Assembly: GCA_949128115.1 (NCBI GenBank)
Contig: OX421966.1
Span: 53,813,416 to 53,877,415, forward strand
Direction: 5' to 3'
Origin: Anaspis maculata
Taxonomy: Eukaryota; Arthropoda; Insecta; Coleoptera; Scraptiidae
Length of the DNA stretch: 64,000 nt
This document shows, in pieces, positions 8,215-63,999 of this stretch. A program made the translations under genes and the position numbers. The notes below the pieces were generated by a model. It ran no database searches. It had not been told where the DNA came from and saw only the letters and a program-made list of their open reading frames with translations. How positions within the stretch are numbered: position 1 is the stretch's first letter; the number at the start of each line of letters is the position of its first letter.

Positions 8215-10318
8215 CCTCAAAAAAAATACTGTAGTCGTGAAAATCACAGGTTTTGTTCAAAATTTTGTGCTCTTTCCAAATTTTTGGGTTTCAAAAAAAT
8301 CCCAGCGGAGGCTTTTTTTTTAGAGCTGTCAAAAATCTGAAAACTTATAATTCCGAACAATTTCAAATAAACTCAATTTTTCATGAGATTTTAAGTACAC
8401 ACAGTTATGTGAAGACTGCAAATGTTGAAAATCAACATTTGAATAATTTTGAACCAAACACGATGAAAAATTTCATAGTTCTATTGGAATATTTTGATTT
8501 GTTCTGTCAAATGGATATGATATAGGAAAAATAGTGAAAAAATCGCTTGAACCTTGAAAAAAATAAAGACGCCCTGAAAATTTGATATTCTGTTTAGACT
8601 TGAATGCCCCACTACATACCTAAAATGGACAGAAATCCCACCCCGGGGTTTTAAGTTATTGGAGGGGGGGGTGATCAGTTGCAACTCAAAATGGAGGGGA
8701 TGAAACCCGTTGATCCATTGTATGCAAATACATCGCATTTCGACGCATCATATCTCGTTGATACCATTTTGGCACAAAAGGTATCGATCATCATTGAGGG
8801 GGGGTCGTGGGAGGGGCGGAGCTCGGCTAGGTGATTATTCCTGTTTTCCTGGTCATATATAACCAATCACGACAAGTTTGGTATTTTTTCCGACTAAATT
8901 GAAACTCCGGACCTCGAATCCGATGTGTTAATTTGAATAGAAACAAGTTTGAACAAGTTAACTTGAAAAAACTTGTTTTTTTCTTTGACAATTTTGACAG
9001 TTTTTTTTTTCACTGTTAGAGGTCTGAATCCCTCGAAAATAGTTCATGGTCCATTAGACGGAAGTGTCGTTTTTACGAAAATCATCCACTCGATAGACTA
9101 TTCTGTTTCTGGATATTAAAAAATCAATTTGAACCTGTGAGTCGGTCCGGCGCGGTTTCTACTAATAACCAGAACACTGCAACATGCACCTGCAAATAAA
9201 ACTAGCTCGAACTATTGAACAAATGATAACTCATCTTTGAAAGTTTGAGGATCTCTGCAGAATTGAATTTGCTATAACATAAAACAAAATCGCTGAGAGA
9301 TCGCTCTGCAGAGTTTTGAGTTTGAGCTATTTATATTTGCAGGTGCATGTTGTAGTGTTCTGGTCAGTAGTAGACATCGTGCCGGATCGACTTACAGGTT
9401 CAAATTGATTTTTTAATATCAAAAAACAAAATAATACTGTTGAGTGAATGATCATCGTGAAAAAGACACTTGAATCTAATGGCTCTTGAAATATTTTCGA
9501 GGATTTCAGACTTCTAACAGTGAAAAAAAAACTGTCAAAATTGCCTAAGAAAAAAACAAGTTTTTTCAAGTTACCTTGTTCAAACTTGCTTTTAATGAAA
9601 TTTACACATCGGATTCGAAGTCTGAAGTTTGAATTTAGTCGGAAAAGATACCAAACTTGTCGTGATCGGTTCTATATGACCAGGAAAACAAAAAGAACCA
9701 CCTTGCTGAGCTTCGCCCATCCCACGACTCCCCCCTCAACAATGATCGACATTTTTTGTGCCAAAATGGTATCAAAGAGATATGATGCGTCGAATTGCGA
9801 TGTATTTGCATCCAATGGATCAACGGGTTTCGTCCCCTCCATTTTGAATTGCAACTGATCACCCCCCCTTCGATATCTTAAAACCCCGGGGTGGGATTTC
9901 TGTCAATTTTGGGTATGTAGTAGGGCATTCAAGTCTGAACAGAATATCAAATTTTCAGGACGTCCATATTCTTTCCAAGGTTATAGCGATTTTTTTACTA
10001 TTTTTCCTGTATCATATACATTTGACAGAAAAAATCAAAATATTCCAAGAGAACTATGAAATTTTCCATCGTGTTTGGTTCAGAATTATTCATATGTTCA
10101 TTCTCAACATTTGCAGTCTCCACATAGCTGTGTATACTTGGAATCTCATGAAAAATTGAGCTTAATTTGAAATTGTTCTGAATTATCAATCTTCAGAGTT
10201 TTGACAGCTCTAAAAAAAAAGCCTCCGCTGGGATTTATCTGAAACCCAAATATTTGAAAAGAACACAAAATTCTGAACAGAACCTGTGGTTTTCACGACT
10301 ACAGTATTTTTTTTGAGG
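8215..10318. repeat. 2.1-kb near-perfect palindrome (foldback element)
   Basis: The left end CCTCAAAAAAAATACTGTAG and the right end are inverted copies, and the arms match almost throughout. Examples are GTCGTGAAAA and AGCGGAGGC near 8300, which return inverted near 10220, and the TGCAACATGCACCTGCAAAT block near 9180-9200, which returns near 9340. The centre is a spacer of about 100 bases near 9210-9330. There is no coding capacity and no certain target duplication. Open frames inside it run through both arms and are not genes. Confidence 0.75.
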
Positions 10319-13973: not shown

Positions 13974-14166
13974 TATGATCATTTCTGAACGCTTCAATTA
14001 TTTTGGTCTGGAATTTGATCAGGCCGTTAACAGTTGCAACTCTACGGAAGGATCCAAACCCTGATATAAACAAGCACGATTTTATTTTAATCATTACTTA
14101 TAAGGTTCTTCGCGGTTCTCAAAATTTAGCTGATCGCTAGTTTCTTAACATGACCCACCAGGTCTG
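13974..14166 (-). pseudogene. LINE reverse transcriptase, upstream segment
   Basis: The minus-strand translation gives GFGSFRRVATVNGLIKFQTK followed by an IIEAFRNDH block. This corresponds to the 'Q.GFR.GRST...L..' RT block just before the first catalytic Asp. Before it, a shifted frame reads like GHVKKLA...ILRTAKNLISND, the preceding RT block. Several stops and frameshifts are present. The segment ends at the 9-bp duplication shared with 18531-18539. Confidence 0.65.
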
Positions 14167-14298
14167 GTGCGGCGACAAAATATCCCACCACAAATATCCT
14201 GGCAATAATATCCCAGGTCAAAAATATCCCTGTCAATAATATCACTTTCAATAATGTCCCGGGCAAAAATATAGATGATATAATTATTATAGAATATA

Positions 14299-15382
14299 CC
14301 GGGTGATCATTTGAAAACTATCCACCTGCAATAACTCCCGATTCCTAGTGGAAATGTCTTCGAGCAAAAACAGGTCGATTTTTATATCGAGGGGGACATC
14401 TAAAACATACATTAGCGATTTTCTATCTCAAGCCCCCTCGCCCCCACTTACCCCAACTTTGAAATTTTGAATGACACTACCTATTTTGCGATACATCAAA
14501 TTCAACAGAATTAAATTCTCTTTCTGAAATTTTTTTTCTAAAATTGTTAACCCCACTCCTCTCCCCCCCTAAATTCTCCGAGTGTCCAATTGAATATTCT
14601 TGACCTCTGAATTCTGTTCAATGCAGTCAACGTCATCCTGCACAGCATCAAAAGAGAAAAAAATTTATGGAAAAAGTGCCACCCAAATTCACCCCTTCGC
14701 TCCTTCCTCCCCACCTTGAAAATCTAAAATAACAATACCTACATTGTGATACATCAAATTGAAGGAAACTCGATTCTCTTCCTAAAAACAATTTTTTCGA
14801 AATTTTCAACCCCTCCCCCAATTTAACTGGACATTTGGAGTCTTTTAGTAGGAAAACGGGGGTTTTGAAAATTTAGAAAAAATTGTGTTCAGGGAGAGAA
14901 TTTAATTTCCTTTAATTTGATGTATCACAAAGTAGGTATTGTCATTATAGATTTTTAAGGTGAAGAGGGGTTTATAAGGAGGGAAGGGGTGAATTTGGGT
15001 GGCACTTTTTTCATAAAAAATTTTCTCTCTCGATGCTGTGCAGGATGACGTTGACTGCATTGAAGAGAATTCAGAGGTCAAGAATATTCAATTGGACACT
15101 CAGAGAATTTAGGGGGGAAGGGGGGTGGGGTTAAAAATTTTAGAAAATTTTTCTCAGAAAGAGAATTTAGTTTTGCTGAATTTGATGTATCGCAAAATAG
15201 GTAGTGTCATTTGAAATTTCAAAGTTGGGGTAGGTGGGGGCGAGGGGGCTCAATATAGAAAGTCGCTAATGTATGTTTTAGATGTCCCCCTCGATATAAA
15301 AATCGACCTGTTTTTGCTCGAAGACATTTTCACTAAGAATCGGGAGTTATTGCAGGTGGATAGTTTTCAAATGATCACCCGG
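14299..15382. mobile_element. 1.08-kb palindromic MITE, CCGGGTGATC family
   Basis: The inverted ends are CCGGGTGATCATTTGAAAAC and its complement, with TA at 14297-14298 and 15383-15384. The arms match over most of their length: the AGGTGGATAG...CGGGAGTTATTG block, the GGGGGACATCTAAAACATAC block, and a C-rich tract opposite a G-rich tract. The centre is near 14840. It lies inside FB-C. TA target and TIR style match the element at 51861-53455 (CCGGGTGGGCC). Confidence 0.8.
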
Positions 15383-15386
15383 TATA

Positions 15387-16138
15387 CAGAGGGGTGCACG
15401 AAAAGCGCCCACCGCTGTAGGATTCCTAATTATTAACCGATTTTCAAAATTCAAAAACCTCATTCAATAGTTTCATGTCCACTATAATCTGATGTCAAAA
15501 AAATATTTTTTTTCTTGATATGTTTCTGAGCAACGATATTCAACTTCTTTTTTCAAATGGAACTATATCTTTTTTATTTTTTTTTCGGATTCTACTTTTT
15601 TTTCTGAATGTAGTCATGTAAAAATATCGCATTTCGCATTGACCGTTGAAAAAAAAACCAGTGAAATGTGATAAAAATGACTTTGTTGAAGCGGCATCAA
15701 ATCGCCTATGAAACTTTACTAAGTGAGCTATGGAACGCGAGATTTTGATAAATAATGTCAAATATCAATGTCAGCCGAGTAATCTGTGGAACAAAGTGAT
15801 ATTTGTCAACAAGCAAAGCCAACACTGCTTGTTGCAACAACAACAAAGCCACAACATTTCACTGTTTTTTTTTTCAACGGTCAATGCGAAATGCGATATT
15901 TTTACATGACTACATTCAGAAAAAAAAGTAGAAACCGAAAAAAAATTTAAAAAGATTTGGTTCCATTTGAAGAAAAAAAAGTTGAATATCGTTGCTCAGA
16001 AGCATCTCAAAAAAAAATATTTTTTTTTGACATGAGATTATAGTGGACATGAAACTATTAATTATGGTTTTTTAATTTTGGAAATCGGGTAATAATTAAG
16101 AGTCCTACAGCGGTGGGCGTTTTTCGTGCACCCCTCTG
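15387..16138. mobile_element. 0.75-kb palindromic MITE, CAGAGGGGTGCACG family
   Basis: The inverted ends CAGAGGGGTGCACGAAAA and CCCACCGCTGTAGGA are mirrored at the right end. TA flanks both sides (15385-15386 and 16139-16140). It begins two bases after the right TA of the preceding MITE, so one of them probably inserted at the other's target. T-rich and A-rich internal arms surround a centre near 15770. It has no coding capacity. Confidence 0.8.
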
Positions 16139-16140
16139 TA

Positions 16141-16390
16141 TTTAGATATGAATAAAGAATTTCAGACCCACCCGATAACGAGTCTATTGTCGTCTCAAGT
16201 ATCGTCCTTCTTTTCAGACCCGTCAGATAACGAGCTAATTTTCGACTCAAGTATCATCCTTCTTTTCAGACCCAACAGATAAAGAATTGATTACTGACTC
16301 AAGCATTATCCTTCTTTTCAGACCCACCAGATAAAAAGTTCATTTCTTACTCAAGTATCGTCCTCATTTTCAGACCCATCAGATAAGTAA
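16141..16390. repeat. 57-bp tandem repeat, about 4 copies
   Basis: The unit contains TTTTCAGACCCACCAGATAA followed by ACTCAAGTATCGTCCTTC. Copies start near 16162, 16213, 16266, 16318 and 16371 (the last partial). They are diverged from each other. The array lies between the right edge of a MITE and the second foldback-like unit, inside FB-C, so it is probably internal sequence of FB-C. Confidence 0.7.
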
Positions 16391-16402
16391 TTGCGAATCC
16401 GG

Positions 16403-18286
16403 AAAAGACATCCCCCACAAAACGTCCTCGGAAAAAACATCCCCCACAAAATGTCCCCTGGAAATTACATCCCCTGGAAATTACGTCCCCTGGAAATTAC
16501 ATCCCCTACATATTATTATTACGTCTCCCTAAAGTTATGTTCCTCCAATCTATTTTTGAGACCTTATGAGTCCCTTCATGTTTTTCATAGCTATCAGACT
16601 TCCAGTAAGGCTCCTTTTGCAGTCTTGTATTATTAAGAGCTCTACTATTATTTCAATATAATTTAAAGCCATGCTGAGTCCCCTTGCATTTTTCATGACT
16701 TTTGAAGCAGCAAGCAGCGGTGTACCGTCATGTCATGTTGGGACCCTGTTGTGCCCCATTATGTTTTTCCATGGGTTTCGGAATAGGTGCCAGTAAGTCC
16801 AATTTTAAGTTATTTGGTTACACAGAGCTCCATTGGGCCCCCTTGTATTTTCAATACCGTTCGAAGCCCTGTTAAGCCTCTGTCCACTTTTCCAAGCACT
16901 ACTAAGGCCCTCGTGCTTTTATGTGATATTCGGTCCCAAATTGGGTCCCCTCATATTTTCAAGTATAATTTGGAGCCCTGATGAGCCTCATTATGTTTTT
17001 TCATGGCTATCGAAATTCCTGTATCTAACCCCCCTTTGCCTTCTCTTATCATATAGCTTCATTGGGCCTCCTTTATAGTTCTTCTATGACTTTCGGAGCT
17101 ATATCGGGCCCCCTTAATGGTTTTTCTATGGCTTTCGGAGCTATATCGGGCCCCTTGTGTCTGAAGTGTAGTTTGGAACCCTAGTTAGCCCCCTTGTGTT
17201 TTTTCATGGCTATCGGAATTCCAGTAAGCCCTCTGTTGCCTACTTGTTAATCCAGAGCTCCGTTGGGCTCCCTTATTCCTTCAATGTCTTTTGAAGCCCT
17301 GCTGAGCCTCCTTACATCTTTTCGAAACATTCGGAGCATAAGTAAGCGCCTTGTGCCTTGATGTGATATTCGAAGCCCTATCGGGGCCCCTTGTGTCCTC
17401 AAGTGTAGTACAGAGCCCGAAATTGAGCCTAATTGGCCCACTTATGTTTTTATTGGCTTCCAGAGTACCAGTAAGCCCCCTTTTTCCTCTATTGATATGT
17501 AAAGCTACATTAGGCCCCCTTGTGTATTCAGTATCGTTTGAAGCCTTACTGCCTTGCATTTTTCCGTAGCATTCGGATCTCTATTGGGCCCCCTGGTGTC
17601 CTCATGTGTCGTTTGCAGCCCTAATGACCCCTCCCCTATATTTTTTCGTGGCTTTCAGAGTTCCAGTAAGCCCCCAGGCTTGGAAACCCTAGTGTAAATC
17701 CCTTGTGTCTTCATGAGGATTGGGCTTCCATGTGTACAAGAGTTCCAGTGAGCTCCCTTCTGCCTTTTTGTGTTACACATGGCTCCATTTGGCCCTCTTG
17801 TTTCTTCAACGTCTTTTGAAGCCCTACTGAGCCCCTTGCATCTTTCCGTGACTTTCCGGAGCATGAGTAAGCACCGAGGTAGGCACCTTGTGCCCTAATG
17901 TGATACTCGGATTACTCGGAGTCCTCTATCTGGCCCCCTTGTATCCTCAAGAAGTGTAGTATGGAGTTCTAATTAGACCACTTAGCCTCTTATTGGCTTT
18001 CAGAGTACCAGTAAGCCCCCCTTTTCTTATTGCTGAGCACAAACATGAAGGACACAAGAGACAGTCTTCACTCTATCTGGACACTCCACCAGTTTCGGAA
18101 GTAATATGACAACACAAAGAAGCTCTTCAGAGTAAGCATCCAGAGTAAACCAGAAGGGAGACTTATTTTTCCAGGGAAGTCTCTTCTGAGGACGTTTTTT
18201 TCCCGATGACGTATTTTCCTGGGGATGTATTTTCCCTGGGACGTCTTTTCCTTGAGACGTTTTTGCGGGGGACGTTTTTTCTTAAG
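16403..18286. mobile_element. Nested foldback-like element with GGGACGT-type termini (FB-B)
   Basis: The left terminus (16403-16512) is a short tandem array of CATCCCCCACAAAA / ACGTCCCCTGGAAATT motifs. The right terminus (about 18175-18286) is its inverted counterpart (GGGACGTCTTTT, GCGGGGGACGTTTTTT). TCCGG lies on both outer sides (16398-16402 and 18287-18291). The full 9-base flanks match only 6 of 9, so the target duplication is aged or uncertain. The cargo is a satellite array (16530-18030). A different non-satellite segment, 18030-18175, lies beside the right terminus. Confidence 0.6.
16530..18030 (-). repeat. Satellite array (about 40-bp monomers), reverse orientation
   Basis: On the minus strand this reads as runs of AAGGGGGCTCA..AGGGCT monomers of about 40 bases, the same family as 21590-25420 and 60190-61975. 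Monomer types recur in the same order, for example a CCTTGTGTC end and a TTTCGGAGC end, giving a roughly 240-bp higher-order unit. The + strand shows GCCCCCTTGTGTCCTC and AGTAAGCCCCC words. Open frames across it are by-products of the repeat. Confidence 0.8.
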
Positions 18287-18530
18287 TCCGGTGGTGAAGA
18301 ACTGTTACCTCCTTGCGATATTTTCAGATTGAGAAATTTTGTCGCGGGGATATTTTTGGGTGGGGTCTTTTTGGCTGGGATATTATTGGCGGAGATATTT
18401 TTGGCCTGGGATATTTTGTCACAAGGATATTTTTGGCGGGGATATTTTGTCGCAGGGATATTTTTGGCCGGGATATATTGGCGGGGATCAAGGCGGAATA
18501 TTTTTGGCTGGGATACTCTGTTACCCGACC

Positions 18531-20416: not shown

Positions 20417-21356
20417 TGATCAAACTTCATTATTGCGCAAGTCTTCTAAACTCAACGGTTCACCCTCTGGGGGTGAGGGAGCGGTGGTCACAGAACTAAT
20501 TAATTGCAATTATCGGCTCCAGTGAGCAAAAGGTGGATCCATTTCGACGCCACGAGGTGCTTCTAGGTCCCCATTCTTAGAACCACCCTTAGCATTTCAA
20601 AAAATGACTGGAAATTCGAAGTCGAATAACGACCAGAAGAAACGGCGATTTTTTTTTTGAATTTCTGATATATTGTCCATATTGGTCTGTTGTATTCACC
20701 CTCTACCCCTTTAGCCCCGATACCTAAGTAGTTTTTCCCAAATCGGCAGTGAAAGCACTCGTTGTACATTTTCTAGTTCAATGAGTTGAACCAATCATTT
20801 CTGGAAAAACTACCAGGGAATAGGGGTTGTAAGGGTAAGGGTGGGTAGGCATAAGGAGTGAATAATATGTATCACCCTTTCCTATATAGTAAAATAGTAG
20901 AAATTCATTTCAACTTATCAAAAAACAATTTATTTCCAGTAGCTTAGAGCAAAAGTTTATAATTTATTGCAGTGCGAACGTCATATCTAAGGTGTTGGCA
21001 TACGCAAGAAATACTTGATCAGCAACACTTCAAAGATACCGCTATTACGGTGCTAATAACCATAGCTGTTGAAGCACCTACTAAATTTGAAAAAAAAAAA
21101 AAAAAAGATACCGCTTTAGAAATTTAAAAAAAAATCCCTATCTATTTTGGTCATTTTCCGAAATGCTAGGGGTGGTTCTAAAAATAGGAGTCTTTCTTGA
21201 GATATTTTGACCAACTCAAAGTTATAGCAAGTATTACCCTAGAAGCACCAAGTGGCGTCGAAATATAAACTTTCTGCTCGTTTAGGCCAGTAATTACAAT
21301 AAATTAGTTCTACGCGACCACCGGCATTCCACCCTTTCTGGAGGACCAACGGTTCT

Positions 21357-21473
21357 AGGACAATTCGTCGCATGGACAATTTGTCGCGTGTAATTCGTCG
21401 CACGGACAATTCGTCGCACGGACAATTCGTCGCACGGACAATTCGTCGCGCGGAAAATTCGTCGCAAAAGGAC
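21357..21473. repeat. Left terminal 16-bp tandem array of FB-A
   Basis: There are seven adjacent units of ACAATTCGTCGCACGG with few substitutions (GCATGG, GCGTG, GCGCGG variants). The units abut without spacers, so this is not a CRISPR array. They are inverted relative to those at 25422-25669. Confidence 0.85.
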
Positions 21474-21589
21474 CGACACTTGTCGATGCGTGGCCAGACA
21501 ATTAGTCACACGAAACATTCGCAAGAGAACCGAAAAAGAAGCATGATGAAATCACCAAGGCCTCGGAACGTAAAGAGACTTATTACATT

Positions 21590-24500
21590 CACACGAAGAC
21601 AAAAGGGGGCTCAAAAGAGCTCAGAAAAAAAAAACAAGAAAACAAGGGAGTCCGATAGGGCTCCGAATATCACATGAAGGCACAATAGACTCACTTGACA
21701 GACTTACTGAGAGACTTCGACAGTCCAACAACTAGAGAAGGCACAAGGGTGCTTGGTGGAATTTTTAGAGCCACAAAAAAACACATAGGGGCTCATCAGG
21801 GCTCCAAACGACAAATGAGAACAAAAGGGAGCCCGATAGAACTCCGAAGCCATGGAAAAAAGCAAAGGTTCTAAGCAGGGTTTCAAACTAATGATATTGA
21901 TATAAACTTTTATATTGAGGACATAAGGGATAAGGGGGCCTAATGGGGCTCTCTATAAAAAACAACTTTTATATTGAGGACATAAGGGATAAGGGGGCCT
22001 AATGGGGCTCTCTATAAAAAACAAGGCCTAAAAAAGAAAAAACATAAGTGGCCTAATTAGGGCCATAAATCACACTTGAGGGCACAAGGGGGCTTGATAG
22101 GACTCCAAACATCACATGAAAACACAAGGTGCCTATTTAGGCAGCACCAAAAGTCAAGGGAAATGTGAGGAGGCTCAGCGGGGCTTCGAAACACGTTGAA
22201 AAAACAAGGGGGTCCAATGAAGCCTGCTTGAATTCAGATCGCTGGTTGTGAAAAAACATAAGGGGGCTGATTGGGGCTCCAAACTACTCTTTCGGACACG
22301 AGGAAGCCAATAGGGCTTCAAATATCACATGGAAGCATAATAGACCAAGAGCTAGCAACGTTTTATTTACCTCATAAGCAAAATGCGGTTTGACTTATGG
22401 GGCATGTAGAGATTATGATGGGCTTCCATAAAATCTTTGTCTTATGAAAAACACCCCTTGCTTTCTCACAAGACAAGCAAAAAAATGTGCCATTTGACAG
22501 CAGTATCCAACAGCAGATTTTCTGGGGTTCTTAATCGATATAAATATCAATTTTATCAGGAATGGATAGGTTGAACTATCTTTCAACTAAATTGAATGAA
22601 AAAGAACACCGAAATGTATTAGAAGCTACAAAAAACCAAATTTCCAAGCGGACAGAAGTTGGCATCGGTTTTTCTAGTAGGCGTGATTCGAGAATCGGCC
22701 ATCAAATGCGATCCAAACAGCTCGGCCTAGCCTACTAGCTTGAACATGCCAGTTGAGAAAGTATGGTTTTTGGTAGTTTCTAATACATTACGAGATTCGG
22801 TTCTATTCAATTTAGTTGAAAGATAGTTCAACCTATCTATTCCTGATAAAATTGATATTTATATCGATTAAGAACCCCAGAAAATCCGCTGTTGAATACT
22901 GCTGTCAAATGGCACATTTCTTCGCTTGTCTTGTGAGAAAGCAAGGGGTGTTTTTCATAAGACAAAGATTTTATGGAAGCCCATCATAATCTCTACATGC
23001 CCCAGAAGTCAAACTGCATTTTGCTTATGAGGTAAATAAAACGTTGCTAGCTCTTGGTCTATAAGGAACTCACTAATGCTCCAAAAGACACAGAAAAAGG
23101 CGAGGGGGCTCACCGGGGTCTTAAGAGATGTTGGAGAAACAATGGGGCCCACGAAAGATCACTAGGGCCTCCAACAGCGCAAAAAGGCTCAAGGGGCTCA
23201 CTAGAATTCTGAAGGCTTCAAAAAAAGGGCTCATCAGGGTTCCAAACGATACATGAGAAAACTAGAAGATCCGATAGAACTCCGTGAGCCACGGAAAAAT
23301 CCTAGGGGGCTCAGCAGGGCTTCAAAAGACGTTGAAGAAACAAAAAGGCTCTTAGAGGGTAACTAGGGCAACAAGGAGGCTCACTGATATTCTTAAAGCT
23401 ACGGGAGGAATAAAGGGGCTTATCAGGGCTCCAAACGATACATGAGGAAACAAGGGACCGGATGGAGCTCCGTAAGCCATGGAAAAATGCTATGGGGCTC
23501 AGCAGGGCTTCCAAAGACGTTGAAGAAACAAGGGGGCTCCTGGAGGGCTACTAGGGCCTCTAACAACGCAAGAAGGTACAATGGGGCTCACTGGAATTCT
23601 GAAAGCTACGGAAGAAATAAGGGAGCTCATCAGGACTCCAAACGATACATGAAGAAACAAGGGGGCTCGATGGAGCTCCGTAAGCCACGAAAAAGTGCTA
23701 TGGGGCTCGATGGAGCTCCGTTAGCCACAAAAAAATGCTATGGGGCTCGATGGAGCTCCGTGAGCCACGGAAAAATGCTATGGGGCTCAGCAGGGCTTCA
23801 AGAGACGTTGAAGAGACAAGGGGGCCTTTAGAGGGCAACTAGGGCAACAAGGGAGCTCACTGAAATTCTGAAAGCTACGAAAATGATAAGGAGGCTCATC
23901 AGGGCTTCAAACGATACATTGGGACACAAGGGGGGCCCGATGGAGCTCCATGACCTACGGTGGAGATTCTACCGGGACTCAGCAGGGTTTCAAAAGATAT
24001 AGATGACATAATGGAGCCCGAAGGAGCTCTGTTTAACAAAAGAATGCAAAAGGGGCTCACGTTTGGGCTTACTGGTACCCTGAAAGCCATGAAAAAACTT
24101 GACGGGCTAATTAAAACTACACTTGCAGACAAAGGGGAGGAAGGGAGACAAGAGTCGGAATATTATATGAAGACCGATAGGGCTCCTAATTACATGACAG
24201 CACAAAGGTGCTAAGTGCTCCGAAAGTAACGCAAAATACAAGGGGACTCAGCAGGTCTTCAAATTACATTGAAGACACAAGAAGAGGGCCAAATGAAGCT
24301 CTGGATAACATAAGATGATGAAAGAGGGCTTATTGGAATTCTGAAAGCTATGAAACACATAACAGCACTTGAGGACGCAAAGGGGCCCGATAGGAGGCTG
24401 AATATGACATGAGAGCACGAGGGGTTCACTAGTGCTCCGAAAGCCTTGGAAAAATAAAAGGAGGCTCAACAGAGTTTTAATCGACGTTGAAGACACGAGG

Positions 24501-25420
24501 GGGCCTACTGGAGATATGTTTAACAAAATAGGCTTATTGGTACGTATTTTCTCTGGAAGTCTATCAGCTCTGGGGCTTATCAGAGCTTCGATTACATTTT
24601 AAGAAACAAAGAGGCTAGGCAGGGCTCCGAATATGACATGTTGGCACACCGCTGCTTGCTGCTCCGGAAGTCACAGGAAATGCAAGGGGGCATAGTAGAG
24701 CTTCAAATAACACTGGGGCCCAGTGAGGCTCTTGATAACACAAGTTTGCAAAATAGGGGGTCTGGAACTCTGAAAGCTATGAAAAATATAAGAAGGGTAA
24801 TTATAGGGCTCAAAATTACACTTAAGGACGTAAGGAGCCCGACAGGGCTCCGAACACCACATGAAGGCACAAGGGGCTTACTAGTTCTCCGAAAGTCACA
24901 GAACGATGTAAGGGGGCTCAGCAGAGCTCAGAAAAAATACAGGGAAACTCATCAGGATAGGATTCCGAATATGACATGGAAAGACAAAGGTGCTTACTGC
25001 TACAAAAGTCACGGAAAGATGCAAGGGGCTCACCAAAGGCTCTAAACTGCACTTGAGACACAAGGAGACCCAATGGAGGTCTGGATAGCACAAGAACGCA
25101 ATAGAGGGCTTGCTGGGATTCTGGTAGTCATGAAGAGACCTGAAGAGCTAATTAGGTCTCCAAACAACACTTACGGACACAAGAGGCTCGATAGGGGTAT
25201 ATCACATTAAGGCAAACGGGGCTTACTAGAGTTCCGAGAGCTCGGTGCACTACTGGAAGTGCGCGGAGTAATGCAAGGAGACTTACTAGAGATTCAGACA
25301 TTGAAAAAACAAAGGTGTTCAAAAGGGTTTTAGAGATAATACAGTAAGATAAAAGGGGCTCATTAGAATTCTAAACACAAAACGAGTTAGTAAAATCAAG
25401 GCAAAGGGCAAAAAATATTT
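21590..25420 (+). repeat. Satellite array with higher-order structure
   Basis: Monomers of about 40 bases start AAGGGGGCTCA and end GA.ACAAG. At least six monomer types can be told apart: GCAGGGCTTCAAAAGACGTT, TCTGGATAACACAAGAAGG, GGAATTCTGAAAGCCATGA, ATCAGGGCTCCAAACGA, CGATAGGGCTCCGAATATCA and a CACGGAAAAATGCA form. They recur in largely fixed order, giving a higher-order unit of about 240 bases. Within 23430-23830 some monomers are locally amplified (a repeated GGGGCTCGATGGAGCTCCGT). A 60-base block is duplicated head to tail near 21905-22020. Many monomers contain the self-complementary GGAGCTCC. Confidence 0.85.
22343..23059. mobile_element. 0.72-kb palindromic MITE inside the satellite
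   Basis: The inverted ends are GACCAAGAGCTAGCAACG and its complement, flanked by TA (22341-22342 and 23060-23061). The arms are highly similar over about 300 bases each (GGGGTGTTTTTCATAAGAC, AACCTATC.ATTCCTGA and other blocks) around a centre near 22700. The arms look less diverged than most palindromes here, which suggests a younger insertion. It lacks coding capacity. Confidence 0.85.
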
Positions 25421-25421
25421 T

Positions 25422-25669
25422 GCGACGAATTGTCCGTGCCACGAACTGTCCACGAAAATTTGTCCGCGACGAATTGTCCATGCGGCGAATTGTCCGTGCG
25501 ACGAATTGTCCGTGCGACGAATTGTTCGTGCGGCGAATTGTCAGTGTGACGGATTGTCAGTGTGACGGATTGTCCAAGAGAAGAATTGTCCGTGCGATGA
25601 ATTGTCCGCTCAACAAATTGTCCGTGCGACGAATTGTCCGCGTCAAATTGTCCGCGACGAATTGTCCGG
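25422..25669. repeat. Right terminal 16-bp tandem array of FB-A
   Basis: About fifteen units of GTGCGACGAATTGTCC with variants (GCGGCGAATTGTCC, GTGACGGATTGTC, AGAAGAATTGTCC) form the inverted counterpart of the left array. Preceding bases (AAGGCAAAGGGCAAAAAATA) resemble those before the terminal array at 61980. A long open frame crosses it (arginine and cysteine repeats), but it is a product of the 16-base periodicity. Confidence 0.85.
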
Positions 25670-25724
25670 TCACGAGGGTAAACCGTTGAGTTTAGAGGAT
25701 TTGCATAGTGATGAAGTTTGATCA

Positions 25725-26207
25725 GTGAAAACCCGAAAAAACACAGTGGGTCTAATCAAGGCTCCAAATGGAACTTGAGGACCCAAAGGGACCCGATAGA
25801 GCTCTGAATATTACATGAAAGCATAAAGATATTGATGTTGCGCCCGTTTTCAGAGAGCGTCAGTATTCTCTCTGAACTAATAAGCCTAGGTCAGAATAAG
25901 ATCCGCTTAAAGCAAAACGAAAGTTGAGAATTACAACGCATTTAGATATTTTTCCGAGAACATCGAGATGCTGTATGATTTGGTCTATGACTATTTAAAT
26001 GGTTCTTGTGATATAATTCTGAATTTAATTTCTGAATTTTGATAAAATTTGGTACACAAAGTAAGTTGATGCATACCTACAAGCTGGTTACATTGACTTC
26101 TGTCAAATGTGTTAAAATATATATGATTAATTTTTTATCTATCTGAAAAACTTCTCGATGCCCTACCATCTTGTTGAATATTGACAATCAAAAGTGTAAC
26201 ACCCTGT
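25725..26207. other. Short satellite fragment followed by unclear DNA
   Basis: Bases about 25740-25840 are two to three monomers of the same satellite (CCGATAGAGCTCTGAATATT and neighbours), outside FB-A and just beyond the host palindrome. They may mark another, mostly lost copy. From 25840 to 26207 I see no recognisable feature. Confidence 0.5.
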
Positions 26208-47479: not shown

Positions 47480-47900
47480 GGTTGGCTTTCATAATTCGGC
47501 CGCCATCTTGGCTGCCATATTGAAATTTCTTATTAGTGGAACGATTGCCATGAAACTTGAAACTTACCCTTGTCTAGTACGATCATTCTTATTTTCAAGC
47601 CAAATTTCATGATTGCCCCACCATCTTGGCCGCCATATTGAAATCTCTTATAAGTGGAAGGATTTTTATGAAACTTGAGAGTTACGCTTGTCTCGTACGA
47701 TCATTCCTATTTTCAAGCTGAGTTTCATAATTCTGCCGCCATCTTGGCTGCCATATTGAAATCTCTTGTTAGTGGAACGATTTTCATGAAACTTGGAACT
47801 TACCCTTGTCTAGTACGATCATTTTGATTTTCAAGCCGAATTTCATGATTCTGTCGATATTTTGGCCGCCATATTGCAATTTTTTGCCCAAGACGGTAGA
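47480..47900 (+). repeat. 122-bp tandem repeat, about 3.5 copies
   Basis: Each unit holds GCCGCCATCTTGGC.GCCATA, TTGAAAT.TCTTAT.AGTGGA, ATGAAACTTGAAACTTACCC and a TTGTCTAGTACGATCATTC block. Copies start near 47502, 47626, 47738 and 47860. The same unit occurs inverted at 55810-56165. Confidence 0.8.
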
Positions 47901-48039
47901 ACCCTAATCACTTAACATCTTGCGTTCACTAATCCTCCAAAAAGGAAGTGCGCTACTGAGCCTCATGCCCATGAGACATATTCGCTTGTTTGATGTATTT
48001 ACATGAAATTCTCCCTATTTGATAAATATCAAACAGCTA

Positions 48040-48690
48040 AATTTGACATTTTGACAGTTTCAAGGCCGCCATATTGAACTTTTGCATTTTCCAACAGATC
48101 GGATTGGGATTCTCAACTTACACCTGCTTTGGGTAGGTTATGGAGATGTGGTTGTTAAATTTCGATTTTCGACGTTTCAAATGGCCGCCATATCAAATTT
48201 TTGGATTTTTCAACTGATCGGATTGGGATTTTTAACTTGTACCTGCTTTGGATAGGCAATCGAGATGAATTTGTTGAATTTTGATTTTTGACGTTTCAAA
48301 AAGCCACCATATTGAAGTTTTTCTGCATTTTCCAACCAATCAGATTAAAATTTCCAACCTGTACTTGCTTTGGTATAGACAATCGAGATCCATCTGTCAA
48401 ATTTGACATTTTAACGTTTCAAAAGGCCGCCATATTGAACTTTTGCATTTTTCAACAGATCAGATTGGAATTTTCAGCCTGTACTTGCTTTAGTTAGGCA
48501 ATCGAGATGCATCAGTCAAATTTCAATTTTTGACGTCCCAGAAGACCGCCATATCTAATGAACTAATGAACTTTTGCATTTTTTAACTGATCCGATTGGG
48601 ATTTTTAACCTATACCTCAAAATGCGTCTGTCAAACTTTGATTTTTGACGTTTCAAGAGACCGTCATATAGGCGCTCTGCATATTTTGAA
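48040..48690 (+). repeat. 120-bp tandem repeat, about 5.5 copies
   Basis: The unit contains CGTTTCAAAAGGCCGCCATA, TTGAACTTTTGCATTTTCCA, ATCGGATTGGGATTTTTAAC and CTGTACCTGCTTTGG..AGGC. Successive copies start near 48060, 48172, 48291, 48415 and 48530, with a last degenerate copy near 48650 and an isolated relative near 49305. It is related in style, but not identical, to the 122-bp repeat beside it. Confidence 0.75.
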
Positions 48691-55799: not shown

Positions 55800-56170
55800 G
55801 TTATTTGAGCTAAAATTCGGATATGGCGGCCAAAATAGCGGCAGAATCATATAGTTCTACTAGACAAGGGTGAGTTCCAAGTTTCATGAAAATCGTTCCA
55901 CTTATAAGAGATTTTAATATGGCGCCCAAGATGGCGGCGGAATGTTGAAATTCAACTAAAAAATAAGAATGATCATACGGAACAAGGGTGAATTCCAAGT
56001 TCCATGAAAATCGTTTTACTTATAAGAAACTCCAGTATGGCGGCCAAGATGGCGGAAGAATCATGAAATTCGGCTTGTAAATAAGAATGATCTCACTAGA
56101 CAATAGTTAGTTCCAAGTTTCATGAAAATCGTTACCTCAAGAGATTTTCAATATGGCGACCAATATGGCG
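55800..56170 (-). repeat. Inverted copies of the 122-bp repeat
   Basis: About three units, in reverse orientation to 47480-47900, carry ATGGCGGCCAAGATGGCGG, TTCCAAGTTTCATGAAAATC and ACTTATAAGA words. They form part of the right arm of the 9-kb inverted domain. Confidence 0.8.
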
Positions 56171-58749: not shown

Positions 58750-59926
58750 GCGTTTGTCTTCGCCAGTGCCAATGTCGTTGCGTTTGTTGTTGATTTGGTC
58801 AAACCTTTTGCCGTATTACAGAAGAATCTACACCAGTGCCAACCCCAGACGTTGGATAAGCTCATGCAGTTCTGTCAAGCTATCGAGGACACTAGCGTGT
58901 CAGCCATGCGGTACAGACTTCCACCGGTCGATCGAGGACAATTGTTGGAGCCGGATCTGACATACGACGAGAGTACTTCTAGGGTGGAGAGTGGAAAGTG
59001 AAGACCGAATATCCGTCTACACAGGAGTACCAAGTGGAGCGGGTACGCCAGCTAAAGTCTTCGCTGTCAATCCACCTCCACCGGTCGATCGTCCTACGCA
59101 ATCCAAGAATGTGTGTTGAAATTGTGGGAAAACGGGACATTTTGCGGGAGCCTGCATTGTACCAGAGAACGTATATTGTCATCGCTGTGGCGAACAAGGA
59201 TCTTCCTACGCCCTTGCTGCAAGTGCAAGGCGAAGAGAAGGAATAAAGCGTAGGAATTCGGAAAACTAGAGAGCGAGCGTTGAATATCAGATAAGAGTCA
59301 GAGCCGGCGTAGAACGGATAAAGCAAAGGTACTATTTCTATTTCTATTTCATCGGCGCATCAGCAACGTGTTCACCAGGAGCTATACCAGATGTCGGAGC
59401 TTGGGGTTGTGGAGCTTTTCACCAGTCCCTGACCATCCAATAGTCATGGTGAGGAAGAAGAATGGGTCCTACCGATTCTGTGTCGATTACCGCAAGGTGA
59501 ATTCGGGACGAATATCTGTTGCCGTACATTTCCATTATCTTGGACCACTTGGGAAACGCGCGTTTTTTATCATCCCTTGTCATAAATAGCGTTTACTGGC
59601 AAATTCCCGTCGAAGCAACAAGTCGTCCAAAGATCTTGAAGGTCGCAGTGCAGAAAGGATCCTCTAAGACCAAACGACCACATCTAATCTACAACGAGTC
59701 GTCCGGTGACAGCGTTTACGGTCCCAGGCCGTGGCCTATTCCAATTCCACCGCTTACCATTTGGCCTGCATGGAGCCTCAAGTACATGGCAGAGGCCCAT
59801 CGATAAAGTCTTGGGACTCTTGGGTCTTGATTTGGAGAAGCACGTTCTCGTGTATCTCGACGACATCGTCATTGTCTCCGAAGATTTCCGTCAACACCTG
59901 GACGAATATTCATGAACAGCAGACGG
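58750..59926 (+). pseudogene. Ty3/gypsy gag end and reverse transcriptase (5' part of a split element)
   Basis: Near 59114-59218 two CCHC-like knuckles read C.NCGKTGHFAGAC and then YCHRCGEQG. A stop replaces the residue after the first Cys. The RT follows: KKNGSYRFCVDYRKVN (59455-59502), then FLSSLVINSVYWQIPVEATS, and GLFQFHRLPFGLHGASSTW with LEKHVLVYLDDIVIVSEDF (59730-59885), where YLDD is the catalytic box. Upstream, 58750-59000 is probably gag (a KLMQFCQAIEDTSVSAMRY frame) but is not diagnostic. Reading-frame shifts and stops make it inactive. Coding stops near 59926 and resumes in the same order at 62680, after a satellite-bearing insertion. Confidence 0.8.
59629..59696. other. 68-base insert flanked by an 8-base direct repeat
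   Basis: AGTCGTCC occurs at 59621-59628 and 59697-59704. The RT frame before the first copy and after the second differ by one base. The intervening segment plus one repeat copy is 76 bases, exactly the offset needed to explain the shift. It could be a small insertion with an 8-base target duplication, or a templated duplication. Confidence 0.55.
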
Positions 59927-60189
59927 ATTAGCCGTTCGGCCCATTTCGTGCTGGAAATCTCGTATTCTGCCATGGTTACAACCATGGAGGTTACTTCTAA
60001 CCTCCATGGGTAACGACAACGACCAGGTAATCAAGAAACGTCAGGAAAAATAATTATTTTGACATGATTATGACATAGGGTTAGGGCCGTTCCAAAATTC
60101 TTCGATGGAACCCCTTCTATCGTAATTCGTGTAAATTTTCAACCCCTATTTTTTATTTCTACGTAGGTATCTATTACAATAATAGAAAG
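59927..60189. other. Junction between gypsy RT and satellite
   Basis: A hairpin (GGAGGTTA with its complement TAACCTCC) lies near 59985-60010. I see no 16-base terminal array on this side, so the left end of the inserted satellite unit is lost or different. Confidence 0.45.
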
Positions 60190-61975
60190 TGGGTAGTGTG
60201 AGAACTCTTGACATATTTGAAGCTCCCAATAAGGAAGCTACATAGGGAAGCTTATCAGAGCTCCAAACGACAGATGAGGACAAGAAGGGGTCCGATGGGG
60301 CTTCAAATGTCACATGAAGTCACAAGGTTGCTCACTAGAGATTTGGAAGCGTCAAAAAAATGCAAAGGGGTTCAACCGGACTTTAAAAGACATTTACGAG
60401 ACAATGAGGCTCAGCAATTCAGCATAGCTTGTATAACTAACAATGGAATCAGGCATGGGGGCCAATGGGGTTCTAAATAGATAACACAAGAAGGCCAAAT
60501 AGTGTCTACTGGAAATATGCAGCCATTGGAAAGCATAGAAGAGGTTATCAGAGTTCCAAACGCCAGGGGAGGACACAAGGGTCCAAATAGTGCTCCGAAA
60601 TAATGATGCACAAGGTAAGGTTGCTTATTAAATCGTTCAACGGGGTTGCTTACTAGAGATTTGGAAGCTCCAAGAAAAATGCAAGGGGGCTCAACAGAGC
60701 TTCAGTAGACATTTACAAAAGAGGCAGGACTTCTAACAACCGAATAATGCCCAAGGGGGGCCAATGAGGCTCAAAATAACACAAGAAGGCAAAATGGGGC
60801 CTACTGGAATTCTGAAAGCCATAACAGAGCATGTGAGCTCATCAGAGCTCTAATAAACGACAGATGGAGACACAAAGGAAGCCCGATAGGGCTCGAAATA
60901 CCTCTTAAAGGCACAAAGATGCCTAATAAATTACCCACAGGGTTGCTCACTAAAACTCTGGAAGCCACAGACAAATTCAAAAAGCTCAGTATGGCTTCAA
61001 AAAACATTTACGAAACAAGGGGGCCAAGCAAGGCTTTGACAACGCAGTAAAAGATGGAATGGGGCCTTTTGAAATCCTATGAGCGTTAAAAATCATAAGG
61101 AAGCTTATCAGAGCTCAAATCGACAGATGAAGACAGAAAGGGGGGCCTATGGGGCTCGGACTAACACGTGAAGGCAGATGACTGCTTACTTAAGCTCCGA
61201 AAGCCCCGGAAACAATGCAAAGGAGTTGAACAGGGCTTTGTAAGACATTTCCGAAGCAAGGGGACCATTAGGGCTTTCTTTTTACAACGCAATAAGGCAC
61301 AAGGGGGGCACTGAGGCTCTGGATAACACAAGATTACGGCAAAATAAGGCCTACATCAATCCTAAAAGTCATAAAAAAAACATAAGAGAGCTTATTAGAG
61401 TTCCAAACGACAGATGAGAACATAAGGGAGTCTGCTAGTGCTCCGAATAACAGATAAAGGCACCACAGGTTGCCTACTACAGCTCTCTAAGCCATGAAAA
61501 TTGAAGGGGGGGCTTTGCAGGGCTTCAAAAAACAATAACAAAACAAAAAGGCCCAGTATGGCTTCTAACAACGCAATAAGGCACCAATGGGAAGGGGGCT
61601 AATGGGGCTCTTGATAACATAGAGGGCAAAATGGGGGCTAGTGGAAGTCTGAAAGCCATTAAACATAAGGGATAGCTTAATTGATCTTAAAACAACGAAT
61701 GAGGTCACAAGGGGGCCGATCGGGCTTCGAATAGCAGATGAAGGCACGGGGTTGCTTAGTAAATCTCCGAAAACCATACAACAATGCAAGGGGACTCAAT
61801 AGAGCTCTTGACAACATTGAAGGGGAAGAGAATTCTAGAGGCAACCCAATAAGGTTCAAGGGTGTCCAATGGGCTCTGAATATCATAAGAAGGCTAAAGA
61901 GGCTAGAAGACTCACTGGAGCTCTAAAAGCAACAAAAAAGCGCAATAGGGGCTGTTAAAGTTTAGGCAAAAGGTG
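60190..61975 (+). repeat. Satellite array, third locus
   Basis: This is the same roughly 40-base monomer family and orientation as 21590-25420. Typical words are AAGGGGGCTCAACAGAGCTT, CATCAGAGCTCCAAACGACA and CCGATAGGGCTCGAAATA. Monomers are more diverged and there are local deletions. The array interrupts the pol gene of the gypsy element. Confidence 0.85.
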
Positions 61976-62040
61976 AAAAAATTTTGTCCGCGCGACGAAT
62001 AATTATTGTCCGTGCGACCAAATTTTCGGGTCCTATGTGG
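61976..62040. repeat. Terminal 16-base repeats beside the third satellite array
   Basis: About three units (GCGCGACGAAT.ATTATTGTCC, GTGCGACCAAATT) follow a GGCAAAAGGTGAAAAAATTT lead, like the lead before 25422. This marks the right end of an FB-A-type element. Confidence 0.7.
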
Positions 62041-62626
62041 GTCACGCTCCTATGTGGGCTGGTTAATGCAGAGGACGTAATAGACACTGTCGGAGATGGT
62101 CAGCATGAAACAGAGTCTATCACTACACTGCACGGTGATCACAGGTGAGTAGGTAATATCGATGTCTCAGCCAGAGCCTATGGAGACGAATGAGTATTAA
62201 CTCTGAAATAGGATTGAGTCGAGGTACCACCAGCAAGTTCGAAAGAGTAGAACAGTAGAGTGGCCTCAGATTGACTGACTCATGAAGGATTGGATTCGCC
62301 AAAAATTGGTTCTCGCCTGAAGGATCTACAACAAAGAATCCATGGCTACGTAAATCTCAATAATCTTCAAGAAGTGATTGTAAGGACCTCTTCAAATGAT
62401 TGGAGGGTAGCTAGTAGTTGACGATGAATTTGGCCGTCAACAACTCAAACGGCACTTGAGACTGCCCAATCTGCCGAAGGTTTAGGCGACATCTGCAATG
62501 CGACCTGGCGACCAGGCGACCTGCTATGATGAAGATTCAGGAGGTACAAAATAGGTTTAAAGAAACCTTACCAGATTCATCCACAAAAGCATTTCTGACA
62601 AAGCAAAATCTCGCTTCAAAATTTTT
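62041..62626. other. Unclear DNA between satellite and gypsy pol
   Basis: TCCTATGTGGG is repeated at 62031-62041 and 62050-62060. Otherwise nothing is recognised. It may be sequence of the inserted unit beyond its terminal repeats, or decayed gypsy coding. Confidence 0.35.
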
Positions 62627-63999
62627 TTGTTGACCTTTGTTTTCCTGAGGTTTCTAACTTACCTGGTACAATTATTTGCACACTGCGATAATCAGTATGA
62701 TCGGTCCTTTCGCGAACGCACGAAGCGTGCCGAACGGCTAACCCGTCTGCTATGTAAAAATATGCCACCTGCATATCTTGAGAGAGGTCTTCGCACGGTT
62801 GGGAAAAAAACGGTCATGATCATGGTCAGCAAGGAAAAATGCTGATTCCGCTTGTCGGAGATCAAGTACTTGAGCTTTGTCGTGGATTGTCATGACTCAC
62901 AAGCCGCTTCCGGCAAAGTCCGGGCCATTGTCGACATTCCGGCACCGAGAACCGTCAAAGAGGTGAGATGCATCCTTGGAATGGCTAGATGGTATCGCCG
63001 CTTCCAAAGAGCTGAAATAGTACCTGATAACGGTTCCGGTAATGACTTGTACCGACTTTTCCCGACCGTTTACAATCCAGACCAACGCGAACGATTACGG
63101 CCTAGGTGCTGTCCTCACCCAAACCTACGACGGTGAGGAACACGTGATAGCCTACATCAGCCGCTCCTTAGGAAACTATAGCGCAATGGAAAAGGAGTGC
63201 CTCTCGTTGGTGTGGGCCATCAAAAACCCGAGGCCGTATGTCGAGGCCACTCATCTTTCCATGGTAACAGACCACTTCGCCCTTCAATGGTTGAATAGCT
63301 TGAAGGACCACAACGGCCGTCTGGCAAGATGGAGTGTTAGGCTGCATTAGTACAGCTTTTCTGTCGTCCATCGGAGGGAAAGGGACAACGTCGTGCCGGA
63401 TGCACTGAGCCGTGCCGTCCCGAGGATCGCCGTGGTGTGCACTGTCGACTTTGAGAGTACTTCTGATGAATGGTACAGCGGAATGCTGCAAAAGGTCTTG
63501 GGTAACCTAAAAACCATCTCTTGTGACGAGTGGAGAGCGCTGTGGTGAAGAAAACCTGCGAGACACCGGATTGCTTTTTGGGACATGCACGGAGCTTGAA
63601 AATCGTCTCAACAGAGGATTACCGCGAGGGCATTCTCGACGCCGCTCATGGATCGCTGACGTCTGAGTTTGGTGGGTCCTCCCAGACCCATCACCGAGTA
63701 GCACGTTAATACTGCTGGCCTGGGATGGCGTCGGCCGTTGTCCAATATCTGCAGAAGTGCATGATCTCAAAAACCCAAACAAAAGGCATCTGATGTGTAG
63801 CCGACTGGATGTCTCCGCTCCATAGGAGGTTAGTTATGTGGACTTGGTGGGGCCCTTGCGCAAGTCACAAGCGGGCAATCTGTAGGTATATCCTGTCGGT
63901 GCTTGACCGCTTCTCCAAGTTCCCTATTTTCCTTTCTCTTCGGACCGCTTCGTCCAAAAACATCATCCACCTTCTAGAGGACCTCGGGTTCTTACTATT
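62627..63999 (+). pseudogene. Ty3/gypsy RT end, RNase H and integrase (3' part, runs to window end)
   Basis: RT thumb and connection: a shifted frame near 62700-62760 gives VLSRTHEACRTANPSAM, then EIKYLSFVVDCHD, AIVDIPAPRTVKEVRCILGM and ARWYRRF. RNase H (63042-63420): NDYGLGAVLTQTYDGEEHV, AYISRSLGNYSAMEKECLSL, VTDHFALQWL and NVVPDALSR. Integrase: a degenerate zinc-binding region near 63650-63780 (YCWPGM, KCMISKTQTKG), then a catalytic-core start with VLDRFSKFPIFLSL and NIIHLLEDLGF before the window ends. Several frameshifts and stops separate these blocks. Domain order RT-RNaseH-INT is that of Ty3/gypsy. Together with 58750-59926 it is one element split by about 2.7 kb. Confidence 0.85.

Follow-up and report, generated by a model that had tools for sequence, protein, structure and literature searches.

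How tandem repeats come to be scattered through genomes is an old question, and a 64,000-nucleotide stretch of the genome of the beetle Anaspis maculata (contig OX421966.1, positions 53,813,416 to 53,877,415; hereafter the window) raises it at a locus where the path can be read directly. Within the window lies a 4324-bp block, here called element B (21351..25674, plus strand), in which inverted arrays of a 16-mer bracket a long run of diverged 40-bp units, and an initial annotation had proposed that these units are a satellite moving as the cargo of a non-autonomous foldback element. The mobile foldback stands, on the strength of its ends and target duplications; the cargo probably does not, the array being the body of the element and being found also around the transposase of its relatives. 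With a probability of about 0.88, element B is a non-autonomous transposon of the Mutator superfamily, Phantom type, with foldback-style termini and a 40-bp tandem body, spread by transposition. It belongs to a known class, the foldback Mutator/Phantom elements, and has a new architecture in its tandem-repeat body, and the "satellite" seems to spread in this genome by transposition and not as an ordinary satellite. The array is part of a transposon and is copied in fixed order, and the path leads from transposase-bearing copies through deletion derivatives to thousands of dispersed matches, in a genome that holds intact candidate transposases.

What, then, is the element made of? Element B belongs to a family with the outer ends GGTTCTA and CGTGACC; both of its 17-base ends are free of mismatches, and it is collinear with the other copies. 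It begins with the 7-bp outer end motif GGTTCTA (21351..21357, plus strand), which is conserved at one end of the copies and is here called H, and continues with a left array of the 16-mer GGACAATTCGTCGCAC (21358..21466, plus strand; period 16, 6.9 copies). There follow a first part of the body composed of diverged 40-bp units (21530..22339, plus strand), a nested palindromic insertion of 723 bp with arms of 304 bp (94%; 22340..23062), a second part of the body, likewise of diverged 40-bp units (23063..25400, plus strand), which includes a period-40 repeat called by Tandem Repeats Finder (TRF) at 23662-23788, a right 16-mer array (25421..25667, minus strand; TRF 25421-25668, period 16, 16 copies) and the 7-bp outer end motif CGTGACC, read from outside and here called T (25668..25674, minus strand). 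Both arrays were located by TRF and by scanning. The initial annotation had placed the block at 21345..25668, which is right as to location, with the exact ends corrected to 21351 and 25674, and its inverted arrays of about 7 and about 15 units agree with the 6.9 and 16 copies of TRF and the 8 and 15 units of the scan. At a tolerance of up to 4 mismatches, the scan of the 64 kb with GGACAATTCGTCGCAC gave 28 matches, namely the 8 on the plus strand at the left end, the 15 on the minus strand at the right end and 5 in the rest of the window, of which one (62012) lies at the end of a decayed element, relic C, described below.

The interior had been put at about 3.8 kb of satellite; the distance between the two arrays is about 3.95 kb and does hold 40-bp units, which are degenerate and share the space with the nested 723-bp palindrome. 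The identity of the array with itself at a lag of 40 is only about 0.35, an undercount because the spacing of the units varies. A model of the unit, applied at a threshold of at least 8 bits, finds 60 units in the window, 34 of them within element B; a single shuffled window yields 0. Element B was among the 16 elements used for training, so that the model was partly tested on its training elements, and the shuffled controls preserve base composition only. The main places occupied by the units are 16.5-18.0 kb (minus strand), 21.6-25.4 kb and 60.2-62.0 kb, and an isolated fragment of the body with no terminus seen lies just outside element B (25735..25823, plus strand). Protein coding was considered as an explanation for the body and rejected, the longest stop-free stretch being only 104-200 amino acids (aa) in each of 15 copies.

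Did this structure arrive as a unit? Element B lies in one arm of an unrelated host palindrome, as the initial annotation had noticed, and the other arm is intact and forms a paralogous empty site (20424..20572). The interrupted arm has its inner part at 21238..21341 and its outer part at 25684..25732 (25675..25732 including the right duplication copy). Once element B and one 9-bp copy are removed, the arms are identical at 111 of 142 positions, and no interruption is seen at this place in the opposite arm; the host palindrome is genuinely split by element B, and its outer arm is contiguous with the inner arm and not an independent repeat copy. At the junctions stands a decayed 9-bp target duplication, with the left copy AGGACCAAC (21342..21350) and the right copy AGGGTAAAC (25675..25683) identical at 6 of 9 positions; the empty arm reads AGGGTGAAC.

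The family extends far beyond the window. In the 757.8-Mb assembly (50 contigs), a pattern of two 16-mer units has 7181 matches (3482 forward, 3699 reverse), the H-end pattern 266 and a 25-mer from the body 5855, with 0 matches for the reversed-pattern control in each case; a DNA search of a phage collection gave no match. A first sample was chosen by the 16-mer and comprises the first 20 of the 22 C1 clusters among 100 perfect matches listed, a choice that favours young copies. The 40-bp body adjoins the 16-mer array in 19 of these 20 loci, and both arrays were caught in 15, in which they always converge. Outside the 16-mers stand two unlike 7-base ends, GGTTCTA and CGTGACC, each followed by GGA. 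Ends and duplications were compared in 16 copies (15 from C1 and that of the window), an end counting as recognisable with at most 2 mismatches: 13 copies have both ends recognisable, and all 13 have one H and one T, with the direction of the body fixed from H to T. The flanking 9-bp duplications predicted by the initial annotation are borne out: duplications of 8-9 bp (score of at least 6) are found at 9 of the 16 copies as against 0 of 240 cross-paired controls; two are perfect 9-mers, two match at 8 of 9 positions and five are perfect 8-mers, one of them with a one-base offset.

Is the array nonetheless a satellite in the usual sense, with units more alike within arrays than between them? 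Ten copies, selected out of the 16 for the absence of a large insertion, align end to end over a 3016-base consensus with a mean identity of 89.5% (86.4-97.8%), whereas the best gapped block matches inside one copy, L020, reach 77-84%. A permissive threshold yields 54 units in that copy, many with a spacing of 38-42 bp, and the lag-40 identity within the consensus is 0.36, again an undercount as the spacing varies. A unit thus resembles its positional counterpart in other copies more than the units next to it, so that the array was made once and then copied; repeat number differs among copies in the first half of the body. Two side observations belong to this sample. L028 (443-911 and 5021-5800) apparently holds a window-family copy inserted within 40-bp body of greater age, whose end is a worn 15-mer array, TGTCGGGATTAAGGA, perhaps of another terminal family, and L009 carries 18.5 copies of a 16-mer, TTTGCTCAGAATCCGC (8659-8954), not unlike the repeat CGATTCAGTATCCGC of the nematode element Tm1.

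Sampling from the side of the body gives a similar picture. The 100 perfect matches listed for the body 25-mer lie dispersed along C1 and C2, never more than 2 of them within 1 kb; they represent one unit type only, and long arrays of other units are therefore still compatible with them. Of the nine perfect matches that come first on C1, eight were followed toward one end over 1.7 kb each, a choice that again favours young copies; the ninth falls in L009, a locus of the first sample with an array at either end. In 7 of the 8, a 15/16-mer array stands at the end read (5 found by program, 2 by eye), so that in both samples the body is mostly bounded by 15/16-mer arrays, as the initial annotation had expected of the 16-mer. 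Three loci (L049, L053 and L056) show the window family's own end, L050 shows a 15-mer array of the type that forms the outer array of element A, a second element in the window, and in L055 the body follows an outer 15-mer array and an inner 16-mer one. L051 and L052, which are a local duplication and not independent, have a worn array of the GGAAAGAATTTCCCC type, missed by the program and read by eye. The 40-bp body is thus common to several families with different 15/16-mers. As separate observations, an array of AATTGTTCGAAAATC lies 42-47 bp outside the GGTTCTA-side end in L049 (975-1187, reverse orientation) and L053 (950-1188), which points to another array family or a composite element, and L052 has in its terminal array (about 530-1470) a palindromic insertion with TAGGGTTGCCAGA ends and an apparent 8-bp duplication, GCAATCTC, seen by eye.

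Which enzyme could move such elements? There are 67 matches to the MULE domain genome-wide, and ten such loci were read. Arrays of 15/16-mers (GGACAAAATAGCGC type) stand beside the reading frame in six (L032-L035, L037 and L038) and are inverted on both sides of it in four (L033, L035, L037 and L038), in which Pfam recognises MULE in 4 of 4 and FLYWCH in 3 of 4. A further locus, L036, joins all of the parts: it is a 4952-bp element (C9 51756980 to 51761931) with inverted GGACAACTTGACGCC arrays around a 40-bp body that lies on both sides of an intact FLYWCH+MULE frame of 482 aa, and a perfect 9-bp duplication, GCTCTGTTT, flanks the element on either side and has no further occurrence within 10 kb. 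At 1.9-2.0 kb of the joined stretch, array units occur in either orientation, which hints at two ends joined internally. A second copy of this type lies 10 Mb away, with a transposase 95% alike that has one stop, and array and body 92-97% alike; the match stops at the element end on one side and is cut short on the other. The flanking DNA is unlike that of L036 but for a 321-base stretch 80% alike to a place outside L036. Array, body and transposase have therefore been copied together. In eight aligned proteins D207, D269 and E399 are invariant, which we take by motif to be the acidic residues that a DDE enzyme should have, and the 482-aa protein has 235 database relatives at E<0.001, the 120 listed including proteins of Meloidogyne, aphids and fireflies.

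The same protein leads to the origin of copies without a transposase. A search of the genome with it, in which 88 of 212 candidates were scored, gave at least 89 matches, 30 of which cover only residues 418-422 to 472-481 (about the last 61 residues). Three of the 30 were read (L041-L043), and these consist of body, about the last 61 codons and a 3' region with array units, and match both flanks of a full-length gene on C5 at 84-86%, body included; non-autonomous, body-bearing copies can therefore arise by loss of most of the transposase. As an observation apart, another of the MULE loci, L031 (C6:2576000-2585000), holds an element that encodes a MULE transposase and a ULP1-protease/PHD protein and is duplicated in near-perfect inverted form over 4.36 kb (99.3%); repeats spaced about 146 bp apart lie at the outer ends.

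The following mechanism is proposed for the window family. The terminus comprises a 7-bp asymmetric end motif, GGA and then the inverted 16-mer tandem arrays, and the body some 50-60 diverged 40-bp units (a permissive count) without a long reading frame. The whole element would move by cut-and-paste, in trans, through a FLYWCH+MULE transposase that recognises the terminal arrays, and its insertion would leave target duplications of 8-9 bp. The 40-bp array, which is part of transposase-bearing relatives as well, probably arose in an ancestor of these elements; transposition would then have spread it, with repeat number changed later by slippage or unequal exchange.

Sea urchin TU and Drosophila FB elements have inverted termini of short tandem repeats, about 15 bp long in TU, with outer and inner domains, and we know of no 40-bp tandem body beside a FLYWCH+MULE gene in either. 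Helentrons are of the rolling-circle class, for which neither target duplications nor inverted terminal arrays are expected. Short satellite-like arrays dispersed within non-autonomous Helentron elements are described for the Pacific oyster in the available part of that account (PMC7492417). A link with satellites is also reported, in the portion of the text at hand, for Tetris, a Drosophila virilis foldback of probable Mutator type with 8-10-bp duplications, three structurally complete copies and no transposase found, in which 220-bp repeats within the terminal repeats expand into long satellite arrays; in the window family, by contrast, the 40-bp units form a one-direction body between the arrays (PMC4079207).

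The root-knot nematode element Tm1, a Mutator/Phantom foldback, has asymmetric 7-bp outer motifs followed by GGA, variable inverted tandem repeats of 13-15 bp, duplications of 8-10 bp, mostly 9, and an autonomous copy with FLYWCH and MULE, according to the excerpts available (PMC3169594). The window family is like it in its asymmetric 7-mer and GGA ends, its inverted short tandem arrays and its duplications of about 9 bp, and Tm1 derivatives, which are said there to retain only the part of the transposase gene 3' of the MULE domain, resemble the L041-L043 type with its 3' transposase remnant. The Tm1 interiors that these excerpts describe are histone-hairpin sequence, sequence like miniature inverted-repeat transposable elements or transposase sequence, and a tandem-repeat body is not among them. 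Mutator-like elements (MULEs) of Aedes aegypti, including Muta1 and Muta5, have, in the accessible part of their description (PMC5225508), transposases of 416-554 aa, FLYWCH in 13 of 14 families, 8-9-bp duplications and long terminal repeats, mostly with subterminal tandem repeats of 9-15 bp; Muta1 itself has 12-bp subterminal repeats with spacers of 3-4 bp, transposes in yeast and has hundreds of non-autonomous derivatives. Muta1-like MULEs thus share with the window family the 8-9-bp duplications and tandem-repeat termini, whereas their derivatives are described as having heterogeneous interiors, including host gene fragments, in place of one shared tandem array. The features held in common with Tm1 and Muta1-like elements are duplications of 8-9(10) bp (9 of 16 copies, 9/9 in element A and in L036, 6/9 in the window copy), inverted tandem termini with 12-16-bp units of variable number, and an asymmetric motif with GGA; FLYWCH+MULE was seen in similarly built related families, and an autonomous copy bearing the window's own 16-mer was not found. 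In the open-licence literature searched, as far as its texts were available, no comparable tandem-repeat body turned up in any element; the initial annotation likewise knew of no described element that combines such termini with a satellite interior. A literature search for the repeat sequence itself led to two bacterial papers.

Several findings weigh against a Mutator transposon with a tandem body. Two of the loci chosen by the 16-mer are irregular: L017 is a two-unit array without adjoining body, and L025 carries two arrays pointing one way. Six of the 16 copies lack a scoring duplication (L014, L018, L021, L026, L028 and that of the window; three with one damaged end), and in L013 the duplication matches at only 7 of 9 positions. 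Copies without a scoring duplication, and array lengths that differ between copies, would suit flanking arrays that are rearrangement breakpoints or recombination hot spots around a structure grown in place; against growth in place stand the exact common ends, the excess of duplications over controls and the paralogous empty site, and we give it hardly any credence. The body is absent from L032-L035, L037 and L038, six of the seven arrayed MULE loci read, and therefore belongs to a subset, and L054 is body throughout the 1.7 kb read, without a terminus. These loci, the tandem order of the units and the occurrence of the same unit in several families that differ in their terminal repeats, an expected outcome of repeated capture, can be put in favour of a true satellite captured as cargo by unrelated foldbacks, once or repeatedly, with independent satellite arrays also in existence. 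Such capture is nevertheless quite unlikely: the copies are collinear and of fixed polarity, the listed body matches (perfect matches to one unit type) are dispersed, terminal arrays stand at the end read in all but one of the body-chosen loci, and the array does not look like captured cargo because the body also surrounds the transposase gene of autonomous-looking relatives.

The remaining points against the assignment concern the enzyme. Arrays of the window family's own 16-mer (GGACAATTCGTCGC) were not found to enclose a transposase gene, and the family's autonomous partner was not found; L029-L031, three of the ten MULE loci read, are without 15/16-mer arrays and without the 40-bp body, and a relic on C4 (a transposase fragment, 58% identity) has neither arrays nor body in 6.5 kb. 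Duplications of 8-9 bp are not unique to Mutator, the Merlin superfamily having them too, and Galileo, to which the initial annotation had likened the block, is a foldback of the P superfamily with a P-type transposase carrying a THAP domain. The foldback-style tandem-repeat termini of that likeness hold, while the transposases found in such elements are of Mutator/Phantom (FLYWCH+MULE) type. The window family might still be a foldback of another superfamily with 7-9-bp duplications (P/Galileo, hAT or Merlin) whose Mutator relatives share the body by exchange only, and the absence of a found transposase acting on it fits such an origin. We hold this unlikely: FLYWCH/MULE genes lie between such arrays in this genome, in which P, hAT and Merlin transposases were not searched for, and the 7-bp asymmetric ends followed by GGA are a feature of Tm1 in the part of its description available (PMC3169594).

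If the window family is of Mutator/Phantom type, the persistence of its body invites a further, tentative idea, namely that the 40-bp body may be a selected functional part of this Phantom clade, kept in at least four families while the terminal 15/16-mers diverged, and serving transposition; we think this rather doubtful. Were it so, these elements would have a distinct architecture with repeats at the ends and repeats as the body, the latter acting, for example, as extra binding or looping DNA, and would disperse satellite-like sequence genome-wide. Elements of this kind may be overlooked in practice: in one weevil genome study, mostly tandem sequences were removed from the repeat library, according to the part of the text available (PMC8576890), and libraries purged in this way could lose them.

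Two further elements with the 40-bp unit lie in the window. Element A (14167..18530, minus strand) has the design of element B with two-domain terminal repeats, and is flanked by a perfect 9-bp duplication, CCAGGTCTG, which occurs on the plus strand of the window at 14158 and 18531 only. From left to right it shows an outer array of the 15-mer AATATCCCAGCCAAA type (14179..14272, plus strand; TRF and scan), nested sequence in the left terminal repeat composed of two palindromic elements and a 52-bp tandem repeat (14295..16390), an inner array of the 16-mer TCCCCTGGAAATTACA type (16399..16510, plus strand), a body of element B's 40-bp unit with 15 units of at least 8 bits (16540..18033, minus strand), a right inner array (18197..18281, minus strand; TRF) and a right outer array (18336..18517, minus strand; TRF and scan). 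That outer and inner arrays might represent two elements nested in one another was considered and rejected in view of L055, which has the same array order with a short spacer only; element A is therefore taken as one element with two-domain termini, and the insertions in its left terminus came later. The palindromic elements there stand back to back at 14295-16141, with largest arms of 411 and 169 bp.

Relic C (60217..62050, plus strand) consists of 40-bp body, with 10 units of at least 8 bits, and a decayed 16-mer terminus at its right end, recognised partly by eye; a left terminus was not found. Relic C lies within a longer stretch (59915-62755) with an inverted repeat at its borders, AGCAGACGGATTAGCCGTTCGG and an approximate reverse complement of it (by eye); this stretch, perhaps a further transposon carrying relic C, seems to split a gypsy-like reverse transcriptase. 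Elsewhere in the window, tandem repeats of 118-119 bp occur at 47487-48554 and 55864-56133, and their units look mutually reverse-complementary by eye.

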